A stretch of DNA of 64,000 nt from an uncultured delta proteobacterium (GTDB lineage Bacteria; Myxococcota_A; Polyangia; Polyangiales; Polyangiaceae). The notes below the pieces were generated by a model. It was not told the DNA's origin, did not search any database, and saw nothing but the letters and a program-made list of their open reading frames with translations. Location: assembly GCA_903906315.1 (NCBI GenBank), contig CAIVJW010000026.1:1-64000 (forward strand). Direction: 5' to 3'. Below, piece by piece: positions 20,960-62,565 of this stretch (position 1 is the stretch's first letter; the number at the start of each line of letters is the position of its first letter). The translations under genes and the position numbers were made by a program.

Positions 20960-22798
20960 TCAGTAGTCGCGCATCTGCTTCCTGATCTTGCCCAGCGCCT
21001 GCTCCTGAAGCTGCCGGATCCGCTCGCGCGACAGGCTGTACTTGTCGCCGATCTCCTTGAGCGTGAGCTCGTCCTCGTCGTCGAGGCCGAAGCGCCACCG
21101 GATGATGCGCGACTCGATCGGCGTCAGCGTCGTGAGCAGGCGCCTCACTTCCTCGCTCCACTTGCGGTTGGCGAGGTGGTCGAAGGGCGACAGCGCGTTC
21201 TCCTCCTGGAGGAAATCGATGAACTTGCGGCCGTCTTCGTCGCCCACCGGGCGGTCGAGCGAGAAGGGCGTCTCGGCGTAGAAGTCCTTGACCTTGTCCA
21301 GCTTCTCGCGCGGGACGCCGGTCTCCTTCTCGAGCTCCTCGATCGAGGGCTCGTGCCCCGTGCGGGCGATGATCGCCTGCGTGGCGCGCGCGACGCGGTT
21401 GTACGTGTCGAGCATGTGCACCGGGATGCGCACCGCGCGCCCCTTGTCGGCCAAAGCGCGGCTGATCGCGTGCCGGATCCACCACGACGCATACGTCGAG
21501 AAGCGGTAGCCGCGCGTGTGATCGAAGCGCTCGACCGCCTTCATGAGGCCGATGTTGCCCTCCTGAATGAGATCGATCAGCGGCAACCGACCGCGGTTGT
21601 ACCGACGCGCGATCGACACCACGAGCCGCAGGTTCGCCTTCACGAAGCGGTTCTTCGCGTTGTGCTGAACCTGGTAGGTGCGGTCGACCCGCTCGAGGTA
21701 GCGCCGGTACGCCTGCGACGGCGTCACCGTCGGGCGCGCCCTCCGCGGCGCGTCGGAGTCGACGACGTCGTCCTCGAAGTCCGGCTCGCGCACGAGGTCG
21801 CGAGCGATCTGGGCGGCACGCGCCATCCAGATGCGGTCCGAGTCGGGCAGTCTCACGACCCGAGCGAGATCGGTCGCGAGCTGCGTCCACTGCTTGTCCT
21901 CCGACGCCTTGCCCTTGCGCGGCGTCTGGACGAGCTTCTGGAGCTCGGCGATCTGCGGGGCCTTGACCTCGTCCTCGCCGGCCTTCTTCACCTCCGCGTC
22001 GAGCGAGACGAGGATGTGCTCGGCCGCCGGCGGGAACGATAGCAGCGCGACCCAGTGGTCCACCTCGGTCCGCTCGACCGTCTTGGCCGTCTCGAGCTCC
22101 TCGTCGGGCCCCATGACGGGGTGCAGCGCCATGTCGCGGAAGTAGCGGGCGAGCATCGAGTCGCCGCCGCTCTCCTCCACGTCGCGGAGCTCGCGCGCCT
22201 GATCGTTGTCGCGAGCGCGTGTCGACTCCGGCCGGTCGATCGCGCCGAGATCGACCTCGACGAGCTCGCCAGCCGGCTCATCCTCGGTCGCGACCTCCGT
22301 CGGACGTGCGCGGACCGCGGTCTCCTCGGTCGCGTCGTCCTCGAGGAGGTCGACGGCCGCGAGCGCCGTGGCCGCGGCCTTCGCAGCGGGAGCCACGACC
22401 GGCGCGGGCAGCGGCTTGCCCTTTCGGGGGGTGACGGCCTCGGCCTTCAGGGCGGCCACGTTGCTCTTCATCGACCTCATGTTCGCCTCCACCGTCGTTC
22501 CCTGCGGGGCTTGTTGAGCGCGCGGGTCGGTTCCTGCAGAAATCGTTGCCCTTCCCGGCTCCCCGGCCGTCGCGGCGCCGCGAGCCCGGCTCGACGCAAT
22601 CGGGCGCGGCGCGGAATCGGGGGCGGCGGCGTCCGTGACCGGCTCGGACTTCGGCGGGTGCTCGCTGCGAGGGGCGCCCTGCTTGAGCGGCGCGAGGCGC
22701 GCCGGCCCCCCCCCGGCCGTCTTGGTGGACGGGCGACTCGCGACCCCCTTGGCGGGCGGACGAGAAGTCTCCTTGCGGCGAGGGGCGGTAGCGGGCAT
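20960..22798 (-). CDS. RNA polymerase sigma-70-family factor (alternative, no region 1.1)
   Basis: 612 residues from the ATG at 22798. The C-terminal about 400 residues hold regions 1.2 ([22 protein letters not shown]), 2 ([26 protein letters not shown] and [19 protein letters not shown]), 3, and 4 ([23 protein letters not shown]). Region 1.1 and a large non-conserved region are absent; the helix-turn-helix resembles alternative factors such as myxobacterial SigB/SigC more than RpoD. Residues 1-150 are Ala/Pro/Lys-rich and disordered. The start is uncertain: the frame stays open to 23248, and an ATG at 23233 with GGAG is an alternative that would add 145 Ser/Arg-rich residues. AAGG before 22798 supports the shorter form. 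Confidence 0.85.
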
Positions 22799-26013: not shown

Positions 26014-29379
<3,366 letters not shown>

Positions 29380-55185: not shown

Positions 55186-56598
55186 CTACCTCGCGGGCTG
55201 GTTCGAGGGCCCGAGGAACTGGGCGACCACCGTGGTGCCGCCGGCCTCCTCGCCCCCCACCCGCCGCACGTGGACGGAGACGGGGAAGTCGCCGTGAAAC
55301 TGGCCGCCGTCCACCACGACGAAGAACGGCGCGCGCGCGCCCGCCAGCGACGCGAGCTCGATCTTCTGGAGCGGCACGACGAACGCCACGCCCTGCACCG
55401 GCACGGGCTCGAGGAGGAACGTCTCGGTCCCGCCGCGCTTGTTGACGAGGTGGATCTCGAACGAGTTGCGGATCTTGCCGGCCTCCGTGACGTACGGAAG
55501 CCCGGGCAGGCGCAGCAGGTTCGCCTCGAAGTCGACGTGCTTCTTGAACGCGAACGTCGCGACCGCGAGGCCGAGGAGCCCGAAGAACGTGTAGACGTAG
55601 AGCCGCGACCGCAGGAAGCGCTTGGGCTTCGCCATGAGGCCGTTGAGCGAGTCGTAGCGGACCAGCCCGCGCTTGCGGCCGAGCTTGTCCATGACCTCGT
55701 CGCAGGCGTCGATGCACGCGGTGCAGCCGATGCAATCGAGCTGCATGCCGTTGCGGATGTCGATGGCCGTCGGGCAGACGACGACGCAGCGCTTGCAGTC
55801 GACGCAGTCGCCGGCACCGTCGGCGCCGAGCTTGCCTCGTGGCTCTCCGCGGGCATCGTCGTACCCGATCGTGATCGAGTCGTCGTCGACGAGCGCCGAC
55901 TGAAGCCGGCCGTACGGGCAGACGATGAGGCAGAGCTGCTCGCGGAACCAGGCGAAGTTGACGTACAGCAAGCCCGTCACCGTGAACGCCCAGGCGAACG
56001 CCTCGGGGTGATCCGACGGGTGGCTCCGCATCATCTCCCAGAGCCGCGGGATGGAGACGAAGTAGCTGACGAAGACGTGCGCGACGAACACCGAGAGCAC
56101 GAGGTAGACCGCGTGCTTGATCGCGATCTTCGCGAGCTTCTCGAGGCCGAAGGGGGCCCTCTCGAGCCGGATCCGCTGCTCGCGGGACCCCTCGACGAGG
56201 CGCTCGATCGGACGGTAGAGGCCCTCCAAGAACACGGTCTGCGGGCAGGCTCACCCGCACCAAACGCGCCCGGCCACGGCCGTCGCGTAGAGCAGCGCGA
56301 ACGCGGTGCCCGTCAGCAGGAAGAACATCAGCCAGATGTCCTGCGAGTTGAACGTGGCACCGAAGAGGAAGAACTTGCGGTGCTCGACGTCGACGAAGAT
56401 GGCAGGCTGACCGCCCATCTTGATCCACGGGAGCACCGCCCAGAACGCGATGAGCGCGTAGAAGCCGACGCGCCGGGCCGTATCGAAGCGGCCCCGCACG
56501 TCGGCCGTCTGCACGAAGGTGCGCGAGCCGTCGGTGTTGAGTGAGCTGGTGGCCGTCGACCGAAGGATCGGCAGCCTGGTCTTTTCGCTCTCCGACAT
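55186..56598 (-). CDS. ccoG: CcoG/FixG cbb3 oxidase assembly factor interrupted by one in-frame TGA
   Basis: 470 codons. The reading frame runs from the ATG at 56598, through membrane helices, to AGRVWCG, then TGA at 56253-56251 (codon 116), then continues in the same frame ACPQTVFLEGLYRPIERLVEG to a TAG at 55186. The intact family has an aromatic residue (Tyr, Trp or Phe) where TGA stands. The second half keeps all expected parts: CLIVCPYGRLQ, two 4Fe-4S clusters (CVDCKRCVVVCP and CIGCTACIDAC), and the C-terminal IG-like domain. CcoG reduces copper for cbb3 oxidase assembly. It is last in the operon after ccoP. Explanations: point nonsense mutation (TGG to TGA), sequence error, readthrough, or selenocysteine. 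A GTG at 56235 could restart translation. Confidence 0.85.
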
Positions 56599-56628: not shown

Positions 56629-57216
56629 CTACTCCTCCTTGTCACCCTGGGGCGGCTTGCCGCCAGCGACGTTGGTGTTACGCAGCGTGAGCACGTACGC
56701 CACCACCGATCGCACCTTCGAGTCGCCGAGCTGAGGTCCCCACGCCGGCATGCCCTTGGCGGCGAAGCCGTCGCGGACCGTGTTGAAGACCTTGTCGGGC
56801 GCGCCTCCGTGCATCCAGAACGGGTCGGTCAGGTTGGGCCCGATGGTCCCCCCGCCGCCCGGGCCGTGGCAGGCGACGCAGGTGGTCGTGAAGACCTCCT
56901 GCCCCGCCTTCACGGCGTTCGCGTCCTTCGAGAGGGCGATCAGCTCCTCGGGCTTGACGGCGCTCTTGGCCTTCACGGCCTCGAGCGCAGCCATCTCCTC
57001 GCGATAGGCCGCGTCAGGGCCCGCGCCGATCTTGAACGTCTCGAAGTGGAGCCAGTACCAGCCCGCGAAGACGATCGCCCCGAAGAGCGTGTACAGCCAC
57101 CAGTTCGGGAGGCGGTTGTCATATTCCTGGATGCCGTCGTACTCGTGGATGACCTGGTCCTGTTGATCCGAGGACTTGTCCACCGGCGCGCCGGTGCCTT
57201 GGGTCTGCGTGCTCAT
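56629..57216 (-). CDS. ccoP: cbb3 oxidase subunit CcoP, mono-heme
   Basis: 195 residues. An N-terminal soluble stretch with YDGIQEYDNRLPNWW, one membrane helix (LYTLFGAIVFAGWYWL), then one cytochrome c domain with C113-V-A-C-H117 and downstream Met in GMPAW. Canonical CcoP has two CxxCH hemes; here only one exists, so the electron entry path is shortened. The start overlaps the ccoQ stop by 4 nt. Gap to ccoG is 30 nt. Confidence 0.92.
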   Translation of the reverse strand: MSTQTQGTGAPVDKSSDQQDQVIHEYDGIQEYDNRLPNWWLYTLFGAIVFAGWYWLHFETFKIGAGPDAAYREEMAALEAVKAKSAVKPEELIALSKDANAVKAGQEVFTTTCVACHGPGGGGTIGPNLTDPFWMHGGAPDKVFNTVRDGFAAKGMPAWGPQLGDSKVRSVVAYVLTLRNTNVAGGKPPQGDKEE

Positions 57217-57465: not shown

Positions 57466-59817
57466 TCAAGGCGTCAGCGTCGAGACGGCCGGAGCCTTGC
57501 CGCCGGACGCGGGAGGCTGCGGACCGCGCCCGAGGCGCTGCAGGAAGGAGATGAGCGCGACGATCTCGGTGTCGGGCGCGACGTCGACGCCGTTCGCCTT
57601 GAGATCGGCGACGATCTCGTCGGCGTGCGACTTCGCGTCCTGCGCCCCGGTGCCAATTTCCTCCGGGGTGTAGGGTACGCCGACGGCTCGCATGGCGCGC
57701 ATCTTGTCGGGGATGCTCGCCGCGTCGTTCTTCGCGGTCGCGAGCTGCGCGTACGGCGGCATGTTCGATCCAGGCGAAATCTGGCGCGGATCGACCATGT
57801 GCTTGTAGTGCCAGAGGTTCGGGTACTTGCCGCCCTCGCGCGCGAGGTCGGGGCCCGTGCGCTTGGAGCCCCACTGGAAGGGGTGATCGTAGCGCGAGTC
57901 GTCGAGGGTCGAGGCCTCGCCATAGCGCGCGGTCTCGAAGCGGAAGGGCCGAATCATCTGCGAGTGGCACGTGTAGCAGCCCTCACGCAGGTAGATGTCG
58001 CGACCCGAGAGCTCGAGCGGCCGGTACGGCTTCGCCTCGATGCCCGTCGCCGCGGTCTGCTCGACGAGCAGCGACGGGACGATCTCCACGACCCCGCCAA
58101 CGAGCACCGCGAGCACGGTGAGCACGGTGAAGAGGAGCGGGCGCCCCTCGAGGAGGGAGTGCCAGGTGGGCTTGCCCTTCTCGCGAGCGAGCTGGAGGAA
58201 GTAGGCGCCGACGCCGCCGACGATCGCCGTGAGAAGGACCATCGTGAAGCTCGCGATCTCGCTGCGGAGACCGGCGAGCAGCATGATGGCCGTCGTGACG
58301 GCCGCGAGCAGCACCGGCCGACCGAAGATGAGGCTCGTCCACGGCACGACGGGCTCGGCGTCCTTCTCGATCAGGACCTCGGCCTCGCCGTCGACGGCCT
58401 TGCCGGCCTTCGCGGTCATGAAGAGGTTCCACGCCATCATGAGCTGACCGACGAGGAACAGCGTGCCGCCGACGATGCGCGTCCAGTACATCGGTCGGAG
58501 CGCCATGAGCGTCTCGACGAAGTTCGGGTAGAGCAGGCCCCCTTCGGGGTTCTGCGCGCGCCACATCATGCCCTGGGTCACGCCGGCGACCCACATCGAG
58601 ACCATGTAGAGCAGGATGCCGATGGTCCCGATCCAGAAGTGCAGATCGGCCGCGCGCTTCGAGTGGAGCTGCGTGCCCCAGAGCCGCGGCACGAGGTAGT
58701 AAAACATGCCGGCGGCCATGAAGCCGTTCCAGCCGAGCGCGCCCGAGTGGACGTGGCCGATGATCCAGTCGGTGTAGTGGGCGAGGCCGTTGACGCTCTT
58801 GATGGAGAGGAGCGGCCCCTCGAACGTCGCCATGCCGTAGAACGTGACGCCCGCCGCGAGGAACTTGAGGACCGGATCCTCACGCAGCTTGTCCCAGGCG
58901 CCGCGGAGCGTGAGCAGGCCGTTGATCATGCCGCCCCAGCTCGGGGCCCAGAGCATGATGCTGAAGATCATGCCGAGGGTCTGCGCCCAGTTCGGCAGCG
59001 AGCTGTTGAGCAGGTGGTGGGGGCCGGCCCAGATGTAGAGGAAGACGAGCGCCCAGAAGTGCACGACGCTGAGCCGGTACGAGTAAACCGGCCGCCCCGA
59101 GGCCTTCGGCACGAAGTAGTACATGATGCCGAGCACGGGCGTCGTGAGGAAGAACGCGACCGCGTTGTGGCCGTACCACCACTGGATCAGCGCATCCTTC
59201 GCGCCGCCGTAGATCGAGTAGCTCTTCAGGATCGAGACCGGGATCTCGAGGCTGTTGACGATGTGCAGAACGGCGACGGTCACGATCGTGGCGATGTAGA
59301 ACCAGATCGCGACGTAGAGGTGCTTCTCGCGCCGGTTCCACAGCGTCCAGAAGAAGTTGATCGCGAAGACGACCCAGATCACCGCGATGGCGAGGTCGAT
59401 GGGCCACTCGAGCTCCGCGTACTCCTTGCCGGTCGTGAAGCCGAGCGGGAGCGTGACGGCCGCGGAGACGATGATGAGCTGCCAGCCCCAGAAGTGGATC
59501 TTCGCCAGGAGATCCGAGGCGAGCCGCGCCTTCACGAGGCGCTGCGTCGAGTAGTACATGCCCGCGAAGATCATGTTGCCGACGAACGCGAAGATCGCCG
59601 CGTTCGTGTGCAGCGGGCGGAGACGGCCGAACGTCAGGATGGGGTGGAGGTTGGCCTGCCAGACGGCGAGCTGGAGGGCGATGATCACGCCCACTAGCAT
59701 CGCCACGACGCCGAACAGGACGGATGCGCCGATGAACCAGCGCACGATGGAATCGTTGTAGACGATGCGCTTCGCCTCGAGGGCGGGCGCCGCCTGATCA
59801 CGACTCTCGGTTGCCAT
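57466..59817 (-). CDS. ccoNO: cbb3 oxidase fused catalytic and mono-heme subunits (CcoN-CcoO)
   Basis: 783 residues in one open frame. Residues 1-about 500 are CcoN: a 12-helix heme-copper oxidase core with RPLHTNAAIFAFVG, WWYGHNAVAFFLTTP, the His pair GPHHLLNSS, and IIGHVHSGALGWNG. About 510-600 are linker and extra helices, and 600-783 are CcoO with C614-Y-T-C-H618 and ISPGSNMPPY. In most bacteria these are two genes. AAGGAAAGG precedes the ATG at 59817. It reduces O2 to water in the cytoplasmic membrane. Its start overlaps the ccoS stop region by 20 nt. Confidence 0.93.
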   Translation of the reverse strand: MATESRDQAAPALEAKRIVYNDSIVRWFIGASVLFGVVAMLVGVIIALQLAVWQANLHPILTFGRLRPLHTNAAIFAFVGNMIFAGMYYSTQRLVKARLASDLLAKIHFWGWQLIIVSAAVTLPLGFTTGKEYAELEWPIDLAIAVIWVVFAINFFWTLWNRREKHLYVAIWFYIATIVTVAVLHIVNSLEIPVSILKSYSIYGGAKDALIQWWYGHNAVAFFLTTPVLGIMYYFVPKASGRPVYSYRLSVVHFWALVFLYIWAGPHHLLNSSLPNWAQTLGMIFSIMLWAPSWGGMINGLLTLRGAWDKLREDPVLKFLAAGVTFYGMATFEGPLLSIKSVNGLAHYTDWIIGHVHSGALGWNGFMAAGMFYYLVPRLWGTQLHSKRAADLHFWIGTIGILLYMVSMWVAGVTQGMMWRAQNPEGGLLYPNFVETLMALRPMYWTRIVGGTLFLVGQLMMAWNLFMTAKAGKAVDGEAEVLIEKDAEPVVPWTSLIFGRPVLLAAVTTAIMLLAGLRSEIASFTMVLLTAIVGGVGAYFLQLAREKGKPTWHSLLEGRPLLFTVLTVLAVLVGGVVEIVPSLLVEQTAATGIEAKPYRPLELSGRDIYLREGCYTCHSQMIRPFRFETARYGEASTLDDSRYDHPFQWGSKRTGPDLAREGGKYPNLWHYKHMVDPRQISPGSNMPPYAQLATAKNDAASIPDKMRAMRAVGVPYTPEEIGTGAQDAKSHADEIVADLKANGVDVAPDTEIVALISFLQRLGRGPQPPASGGKAPAVSTLTP

Positions 59818-60025
59818 GGGACCTTTCCTTCGGATGGGTGTCGGGACGGGGACCGCGATCGTCGAGGGATGACTCGGCGGGCGCGGGAAGCTCCTCCTCG
59901 AGGGGCAGGAGGGCGAGGCGTTCGGCGTGCTCGTGATCACGCTGCTTCTGCGTCATCGCGTAGAAGACGAGCGAGACGACCACGAGCATCAGGCTGACGA
60001 AAATCTGCAGAATTATCGCTTCCAC
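59798..60025 (-). CDS. ccoS: cbb3 oxidase assembly protein CcoS
   Basis: 75 residues from GTG 60025. MEAIILQIFVSLMLVVVSLVFYAM is the single-helix CcoS signature, followed by a charged tail. The start lies within the last codons of ccoI (overlap GTGGAAGCGATAA), and the stop lies within ccoNO, so all three are translationally linked. CcoS helps place copper and heme in CcoN. Confidence 0.88.
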   Translation of the reverse strand: MEAIILQIFVSLMLVVVSLVFYAMTQKQRDHEHAERLALLPLEEELPAPAESSLDDRGPRPDTHPKERSHGNRES

Positions 60026-62565
60026 AGCGCGCTCCTCCGGGAGAGAGACGCCGCGGTGAAGGCGATCACCGTGAGCGAGGACAGGGGCATCAGGATCGCG
60101 CACAGCACCGGGGACATGCGGCCCGTATAGGCGAGGCCGACGGTGAGCGCGTTGTACGCGACCGCGATGGCGAGGTTCCTGCGGACGACTCGGGCGAGCG
60201 TGCGCGAGGCCTCGAGCGCGAGACGGATCGGGCCGAGGCCAGGCGTCACGAAGTAGAAGTCGGATCGCGCGGCCATGAAGGGGCGATCGATGGCCGGGGT
60301 ACCCGAGCAGTGGGCCTCCGAGACGACGAGGCTGTCGTTGATGCCATCGCCGACCATCAGCGTATCGCCCCGATCACGCGCCCGGATCCACGCCGCCTTC
60401 TGCTCGGCGCCGTGCTCTGCGATGGCGCGCTCGGCGGGGATGCCGGACGCCTCCGCCACGGCGGCCACGCGCGCCGCGGCGTCGCCGCTCAGCATCCACA
60501 CCTCGAAGCCGTCCGTCGCCAAGCTCGCGACCTCGTCGCGCGCGTCGGGACGCAGCTGCTCGTCGGTGGCGAGGCCGACGAGGATCTCGCCGTCGCGCCC
60601 GAACGCGACGTCCCCCGCGCCGCCCGCGCCAGGCGCGACCCAGCCGGGGGCGCCCAAGCGGTACGTCGAGCCGCGCACCGTGAGCTCGACCCCGAGCCCG
60701 GCGTGCTCGATGACCTCGAGGTCAGCGGAGAAATCGGCGACCTCGCGAGCGCGGCCCAGCCCCTCGAGGACGCGCTTGACCGCGACGCTCTTGGGGTGGG
60801 TGCTCCGGGCCGAGAGGTTGTAGAGCACGGCGCGGTCCGCGTCGCCGAGCGCGGCGAGCGGGGCTGCGTCGCGGACGGCGAGCGTGCCCGTCGTCAGCGT
60901 GCCCGTCTTGTCGAAGACGACGCGACGAACGCTCACCGCGCGATCGAGGAAGCCGGGCGCTCGGACGAAGAGCCCGGCGCGCCGAAGGCCGGCCTGCACG
61001 AGCTCGTACGCCATCGGCGTCGCGATGCCGAACGCGCACGGGCACGTCACGATGAGGACGGCGGTGACGACGTCGACGGCGCGCGGCACGTCCCCGAGGA
61101 CGAAGGCCCACAGGGCGAAGCCGAAGGCGGCGGCGGCGAGGACGAACGCGACGTAGACGCGCGAGAACCGCTGCCACCACGGCGTCGCGCGCGCGGCGTC
61201 CGCCTCCCGGTGCACCGGGCTGCGCAGGAGGTCGACGAGCGGAGAGGTCGAGAAGGCCTCGGTCGCGCGCACGGTCGCGGCCCGCTGCGACGCCGCGAAC
61301 GCCCCTGCAGGGACCACGTCCCCGCGGTGGAACGCGCGAGGCTGGCTCTCCCCGTTGATCCAGTCGAGCGAGAAGCTGGCCTCCTCCTCGTCGAGCATCG
61401 CCGCGACGGGGACGAGGTCCCCGGGCGCCACGAGCAGCGCGTCGCCGACCACGACCTCGGTGCACCGGACGACGGCGACGCGCCCGGCCTCCACGCGCCG
61501 CGTGAACAGCCCGTCGACGCCGTCGCTCTCGAGGAGCTGCCTGCGGTTCTTCTCGAGCACCCGCTCCTGGAGCCAGCGCCCCACGAGCATGAGGGCGATG
61601 AACACGTCGAGCGTGTCGAAATAGGACGACGCGCCGCCGGTCCTGGCGAACGAGTACGTCGAGCTGCCGAACGCGAGCAGGATGCCGAGCGCGATCGGCG
61701 CGTCGAGGTGGAGCATCCCGCGCCGCAGCCCCTGCCAGGCCGACGCGAAGAACACCGAGCCGCCGACGAGGACGCTGAGAAGCGACAGCCCGAGGTTCAG
61801 CTCGTTGAAGAGGCGGTAGAGCGGCCCCGAGTCGAGCCCGGCGTACAGGGCGATCGTGAACGTCATCGCGTTCATCGCGATGGCGATGCATACGCCCATG
61901 CGCACGAGCAGAGCGCTCGAGGCCGGTCGGTCGCGCTTGAGCGACGGACCGAGCAGGTACCCGAAGCGCTCGACCTCCTCGAGGAACGAGCGGAGCGGGA
62001 ACGCGGCGCCGATCGCGAGCTGCACCTTGCCGAGGGCTGGGTTCACCAGCGCGCGCACACCGCCCGGCCGCTGCTTGAACAGGGTCTCGATGAGCCAGAC
62101 GCACCCGGAGCAGTGGATGCCCTGAATGTCGAGGTCCACCCTCACGAGGCCGGGCGCGGCGCCGAGGGACTCCTCGATGGGCTCGAGCCACTTGAGGTCG
62201 CGCTGGCCCGGGCGAGCGTCGGGCACCGGCTGCCCGGCCGACCCCTGAAGGTCGTAGTACTTCTCGAGGTCCATCCGGTGGAGCAGGCCGTACACCGCCT
62301 CGCACCCGCCGCAGCAAAACGCGCCCTCAGCGGACCGCGGCATCGCGGAACCGCAATGGCGGCAGCCCCCCCGCGGCGCCGGGATGCTGGACGGCTCGCC
62401 ACGCGGTCCCGGCGACGCACCGGCGCCGAGGGGCCCGGGCGAGGCCGCCTGCGCGCGCGAACGCTGGACGGGCTCGGAAATCAGCAAGTGGATTCGTTCG
62501 GGCGGGAGCCAGTAAAGGAGGGCTTCCCCTGCCGGCGTCGCGCCCCATCGCAGGCTTCGTGCCAC
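60013..62565 (-). CDS. ccoI: CcoI copper P1B-type ATPase for cbb3 oxidase assembly
   Basis: 850 residues. N-terminal CRHCGSAMP zinc-knuckle-like motif and CCGGCEAVY, heavy-metal domain with GIHCSGCVW, metal-transport motif TCPCAFGIATP, phosphorylation motif DKTGTLTTG, and GDGINDS hinge near the end. The topology fits CcoI/CtpA, which delivers Cu to CcoN. First gene of the cco operon; ccoS follows with overlap. The start is not certain: GTG 62565 lacks a strong ribosome site and the first 60 residues are poorly conserved. Confidence 0.92.
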   Translation of the reverse strand: MARSLRWGATPAGEALLYWLPPERIHLLISEPVQRSRAQAASPGPLGAGASPGPRGEPSSIPAPRGGCRHCGSAMPRSAEGAFCCGGCEAVYGLLHRMDLEKYYDLQGSAGQPVPDARPGQRDLKWLEPIEESLGAAPGLVRVDLDIQGIHCSGCVWLIETLFKQRPGGVRALVNPALGKVQLAIGAAFPLRSFLEEVERFGYLLGPSLKRDRPASSALLVRMGVCIAIAMNAMTFTIALYAGLDSGPLYRLFNELNLGLSLLSVLVGGSVFFASAWQGLRRGMLHLDAPIALGILLAFGSSTYSFARTGGASSYFDTLDVFIALMLVGRWLQERVLEKNRRQLLESDGVDGLFTRRVEAGRVAVVRCTEVVVGDALLVAPGDLVPVAAMLDEEEASFSLDWINGESQPRAFHRGDVVPAGAFAASQRAATVRATEAFSTSPLVDLLRSPVHREADAARATPWWQRFSRVYVAFVLAAAAFGFALWAFVLGDVPRAVDVVTAVLIVTCPCAFGIATPMAYELVQAGLRRAGLFVRAPGFLDRAVSVRRVVFDKTGTLTTGTLAVRDAAPLAALGDADRAVLYNLSARSTHPKSVAVKRVLEGLGRAREVADFSADLEVIEHAGLGVELTVRGSTYRLGAPGWVAPGAGGAGDVAFGRDGEILVGLATDEQLRPDARDEVASLATDGFEVWMLSGDAAARVAAVAEASGIPAERAIAEHGAEQKAAWIRARDRGDTLMVGDGINDSLVVSEAHCSGTPAIDRPFMAARSDFYFVTPGLGPIRLALEASRTLARVVRRNLAIAVAYNALTVGLAYTGRMSPVLCAILMPLSSLTVIAFTAASLSRRSALWKR

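Follow-up and report, generated by a model that had tools for sequence, protein, structure and literature searches.

Does an in-frame TGA between two conserved cysteines mark a new selenoprotein, a leaky stop or a broken gene? The question is raised by ccoG in the window (64,000 nucleotides of contig C26 from a genome assembly of 8.79 Mb in 455 contigs). The membrane protein CcoG contains two 4Fe-4S clusters, acts as a cupric reductase and supports assembly of cbb3 oxidase (PMC7558416). An earlier note, made from the letters alone, preferred a recent Trp TGG-to-TGA change or a sequence error, and raised selenocysteine and programmed readthrough as alternatives. It proposed aligning ccoG among relatives, searching the genome for selA, selB, selC and selD, and folding the nucleotides after the TGA against bacterial SECIS models. 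Our analysis supports its preferred reading: very probably, a single TGG-to-TGA substitution occurred in WCGWACPQ, as a young nonsense allele or an assembly error, two cases that the assembled sequence alone does not tell apart.

The interrupted ccoG frame and its cluster

Translation of the minus strand yields a single continuous CcoG frame that ends at TAG and contains one in-frame TGA, codon 116, in the context RVWCG*ACPQTVFLEG (asterisk, TGA). A whole-genome search likewise reported a 470-residue CcoG match with exactly one TGA, and neither a second stop nor a frameshift occurs downstream of it in ccoG, so the frame is otherwise intact, as first described. With the TGA read as Trp, the product scores 404.4 bits against TIGR02745, above the curated cut-off of 316.7; scored separately, the two pieces reach 68.9 and 291.9 bits, and the halves match the profile in succession (1–78, then 88–416). 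The window gene resembles CcoG/RdxA/FixG proteins (TIGR02745) in length, in its membrane and ferredoxin parts, in its cco-cluster setting and in its Cys motifs, which comprise the WCGxACPQ pair, the CLIVCP pair and two ferredoxin clusters. It differs in that the uninterrupted reading frame of the family is broken at codon 116, where a TGA occupies the aromatic position of WCG-x-ACPQ. All 12 of 12 Cys columns are common to the window CcoG, a paralog on contig C251 and Minicystis CcoG.

In its cluster, ccoG is preceded by a ccoI-like ATPase gene, the fused ccoNO and a ccoP-like gene (Table 1). The ccoN-ccoO fusion encodes 824 residues and matches a known bifunctional subunit I/II family (NF011053). 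A restart of translation at the GTG downstream of the TGA is not supported, with no Shine-Dalgarno-like run seen before this codon and a product devoid of the N-terminal membrane part.

Table 1. Coordinates of ccoG, its parts and neighbors in the window, and of a second interrupted gene elsewhere in the assembly.
Feature	Position	Strand	Remark
ccoG (cupric reductase / cbb3 oxidase assembly factor)	55186–56598	-	one TGA inside
In-frame TGA, codon 116	56251–56253	-	TGG, TAC/TAT or TTT/TTC in relatives
N-terminal open part	56254–56598	-	115 aa, made if UGA acts as a stop
Downstream open part	55186–56235	-	349 aa from GTG
ccoP-like cytochrome c subunit	56629–57216	-	best family match, but below family cut-off
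Fused ccoN-ccoO	57466–59940	-	only ccoN in genome
Heavy-metal P-type ATPase, ccoI-like	60013–62565	-	profile match and position in cco cluster
L132, ABC-transporter ATPase domain	G000:C52:12156-12536		one in-frame TGA

Codon 116 in homologs and the age of the change

We compared the motif in 98 distinct sequences, including the window ccoG, from relatives in the family, the order and other phyla. Among the 97 others, codon 116 is TGG for Trp in 80, TAC/TAT for Tyr in 15 and TTT/TTC for Phe in 2, which accounts for 97/97; neither Cys nor TGA occurs in any of them. The stop thus replaces an aromatic residue between conserved cysteines, as the earlier note had it. A search for the TGA-bearing motif across 318 class genomes returned this genome only (1/318), with no other genome of the same genus among them. 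Three relatives (L013, L014 and L022) whose matches contained a TGA were discarded as candidates, the TGA being the normal gene end and the motif carrying Tyr or Trp; in a fourth (L032), the motif has TGG although its match was reported with a TGA. Recoding is therefore unsupported by the alignment among relatives, since TGA is not seen at this codon outside this genome.

TGG stands at this codon in the paralog and in most relatives, which supports a Trp codon that was lost recently or misread. The ancestral codon 116 was probably TGG, and a third-position G-to-A change would turn this Trp codon of WCGWACPQ into TGA in the cco-cluster ccoG. Downstream of the stop, the window ccoG departs from sites conserved at ≥85% in four places, against four in the C251 paralog, and its pN/pS is similar to that upstream and to that of other pairs. 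The TGA is a recent change or else a sequence error, because all other cysteines are kept and the intact copy shows the same number of departures at conserved sites.

The undamaged frame beyond the stop would also fit a UGA 116 read by near-cognate tRNA-Trp, by leakage or by program, giving some full-length Trp CcoG, and among stop codons UGA generally leaks most, through misreading as Trp. However, a young mutation or an error predicts an intact frame equally well, the TGA does not recur in relatives and the structure downstream of it does not exceed shuffled expectation. Reassignment of TGA to Trp was rejected because TGA ends ccoNO and a neighboring gene, and Trp is TGG throughout. Readthrough of either kind, for which we see no specific support, is accordingly very unlikely.

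Interruptions of this type arise elsewhere in the assembly, as shown by a second in-frame TGA in 1 of 67 ABC-transporter domain matches (L132, Table 1), probably a pseudogene or an error. Within the window, an insensitive search for further coding frames split by a stop, one that missed ccoG itself, returned only a TAG at 22040 (+); it was rejected as a split gene, as its frame has no Pfam match and is probably a shadow frame.

Selenocysteine decoding and the SECIS tests

The genome carries the full selenocysteine trait, with selA on C99 (473.8 bits), selB on C260 (266.5 bits, or 292.8 with its neighbor), selD on C436 (317.6 bits) and selC (68.6 bits), which adjoins selB and has the anticodon TCA; all four scores are above the cut-offs. 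The search that had been proposed thus recovered every gene, and the selenocysteine question was a fair one: in a genome that decodes selenocysteine, the UGA in ccoG is not automatically a stop. Were this UGA decoded as selenocysteine, the first Cys motif would read CGUAC, and CcoG, a redox protein with the TGA between two cysteines, would be a new selenoprotein.

Two other genes of the assembly have an in-frame TGA at what we take to be the usual Sec positions of their families, and therefore serve as positive controls. SelD (L043, G000:C436:13176-14102) has its TGA at the catalytic position, QGGG*ARKL, followed by a model-conforming SECIS hairpin with a GGUC loop, and is itself probably a selenoprotein. 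The formate dehydrogenase alpha subunit (L131, G000:C251:24276-26165) carries its TGA, probably a Sec codon, in NRT*HAPSVVGL. A separate stretch further along C251, at 28779-28937, seems to encode the N-terminal part of this dehydrogenase. Like both, ccoG is a redox-related gene with an in-frame TGA in a genome that decodes Sec, and these shared features favor selenocysteine. It differs from them in that their TGAs fall at recognized Sec/Cys positions with a model-conforming SECIS, neither of which is present in ccoG.

We applied the published bacterial SECIS model, with an energy limit of -7.5 kcal/mol (PMC13188914). SelD (-9.2 kcal/mol) and formate dehydrogenase (-12.7 kcal/mol) pass, and both hairpins present GGUC at the apical loop. 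The best model-shaped hairpin after the ccoG TGA reaches -6.0 kcal/mol and misses the limit, GGUC is absent from the 60 nt that follow the TGA, and 62% of ordinary codons equal or beat this hairpin. The model is weakly specific in the GC-rich window, where 51% of ordinary codons pass; failing it is therefore informative, whereas passing would have meant little. The hairpin sketched in the earlier note, which already called it weak and no evidence, folds no better than shuffles (z of +0.51, +0.14 and +0.34 for 44, 74 and 104 nt). A 61-nt piece starting before the TGA gives z of -2.06, in part through a hairpin that includes the TGA. We rejected the downstream hairpin as a SECIS element, as it does not exceed shuffles and fails the model.

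The selenocysteine proposal, then, has the decoding genes in its favor but fails on how the site is conserved, on recurrence among relatives and on SECIS. For nearly every selenoprotein, homologs with Cys in place of Sec exist (PMC1088965), but codon 116 is aromatic in all 97 CcoG homologs compared, and both cysteines of the motif are already there. CcoG is also absent from a 2026 review of prokaryotic selenoproteins (PMC13188914). Decoding of UGA 116 as selenocysteine is thus highly improbable. Still less probable is its special form, a selenoprotein specific to this lineage, with a non-standard SECIS and with Sec in place of an aromatic residue flanked by two cysteines. The locus carries a caution: where a genome decodes Sec, a TGA beside cysteines in a redox gene looks like a selenoprotein, yet the homologs here reveal an aromatic site, and annotation of UGA as Sec from genome competence and Cys context would misassign ccoG.

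An intact second copy of ccoG

Under the preferred substitution, and if the TGA is real, the product would end at residue 115, short of the ferredoxin-type Cys clusters, and this copy of ccoG would therefore be functionally lost save for trace near-cognate readthrough. Such a loss could be tolerated because the genome has an intact ccoG on C251 (5529-6938), which may act as a backup and supply Cu(II) reductase activity. The C251 gene is 71% identical to the window ccoG, has TGG at the codon in question and is its sister in the tree (support 99/95). Its surroundings are not a second cco operon; nearby is a molybdopterin-oxidoreductase-like cluster, in which one ORF matches an Fdh-alpha profile.
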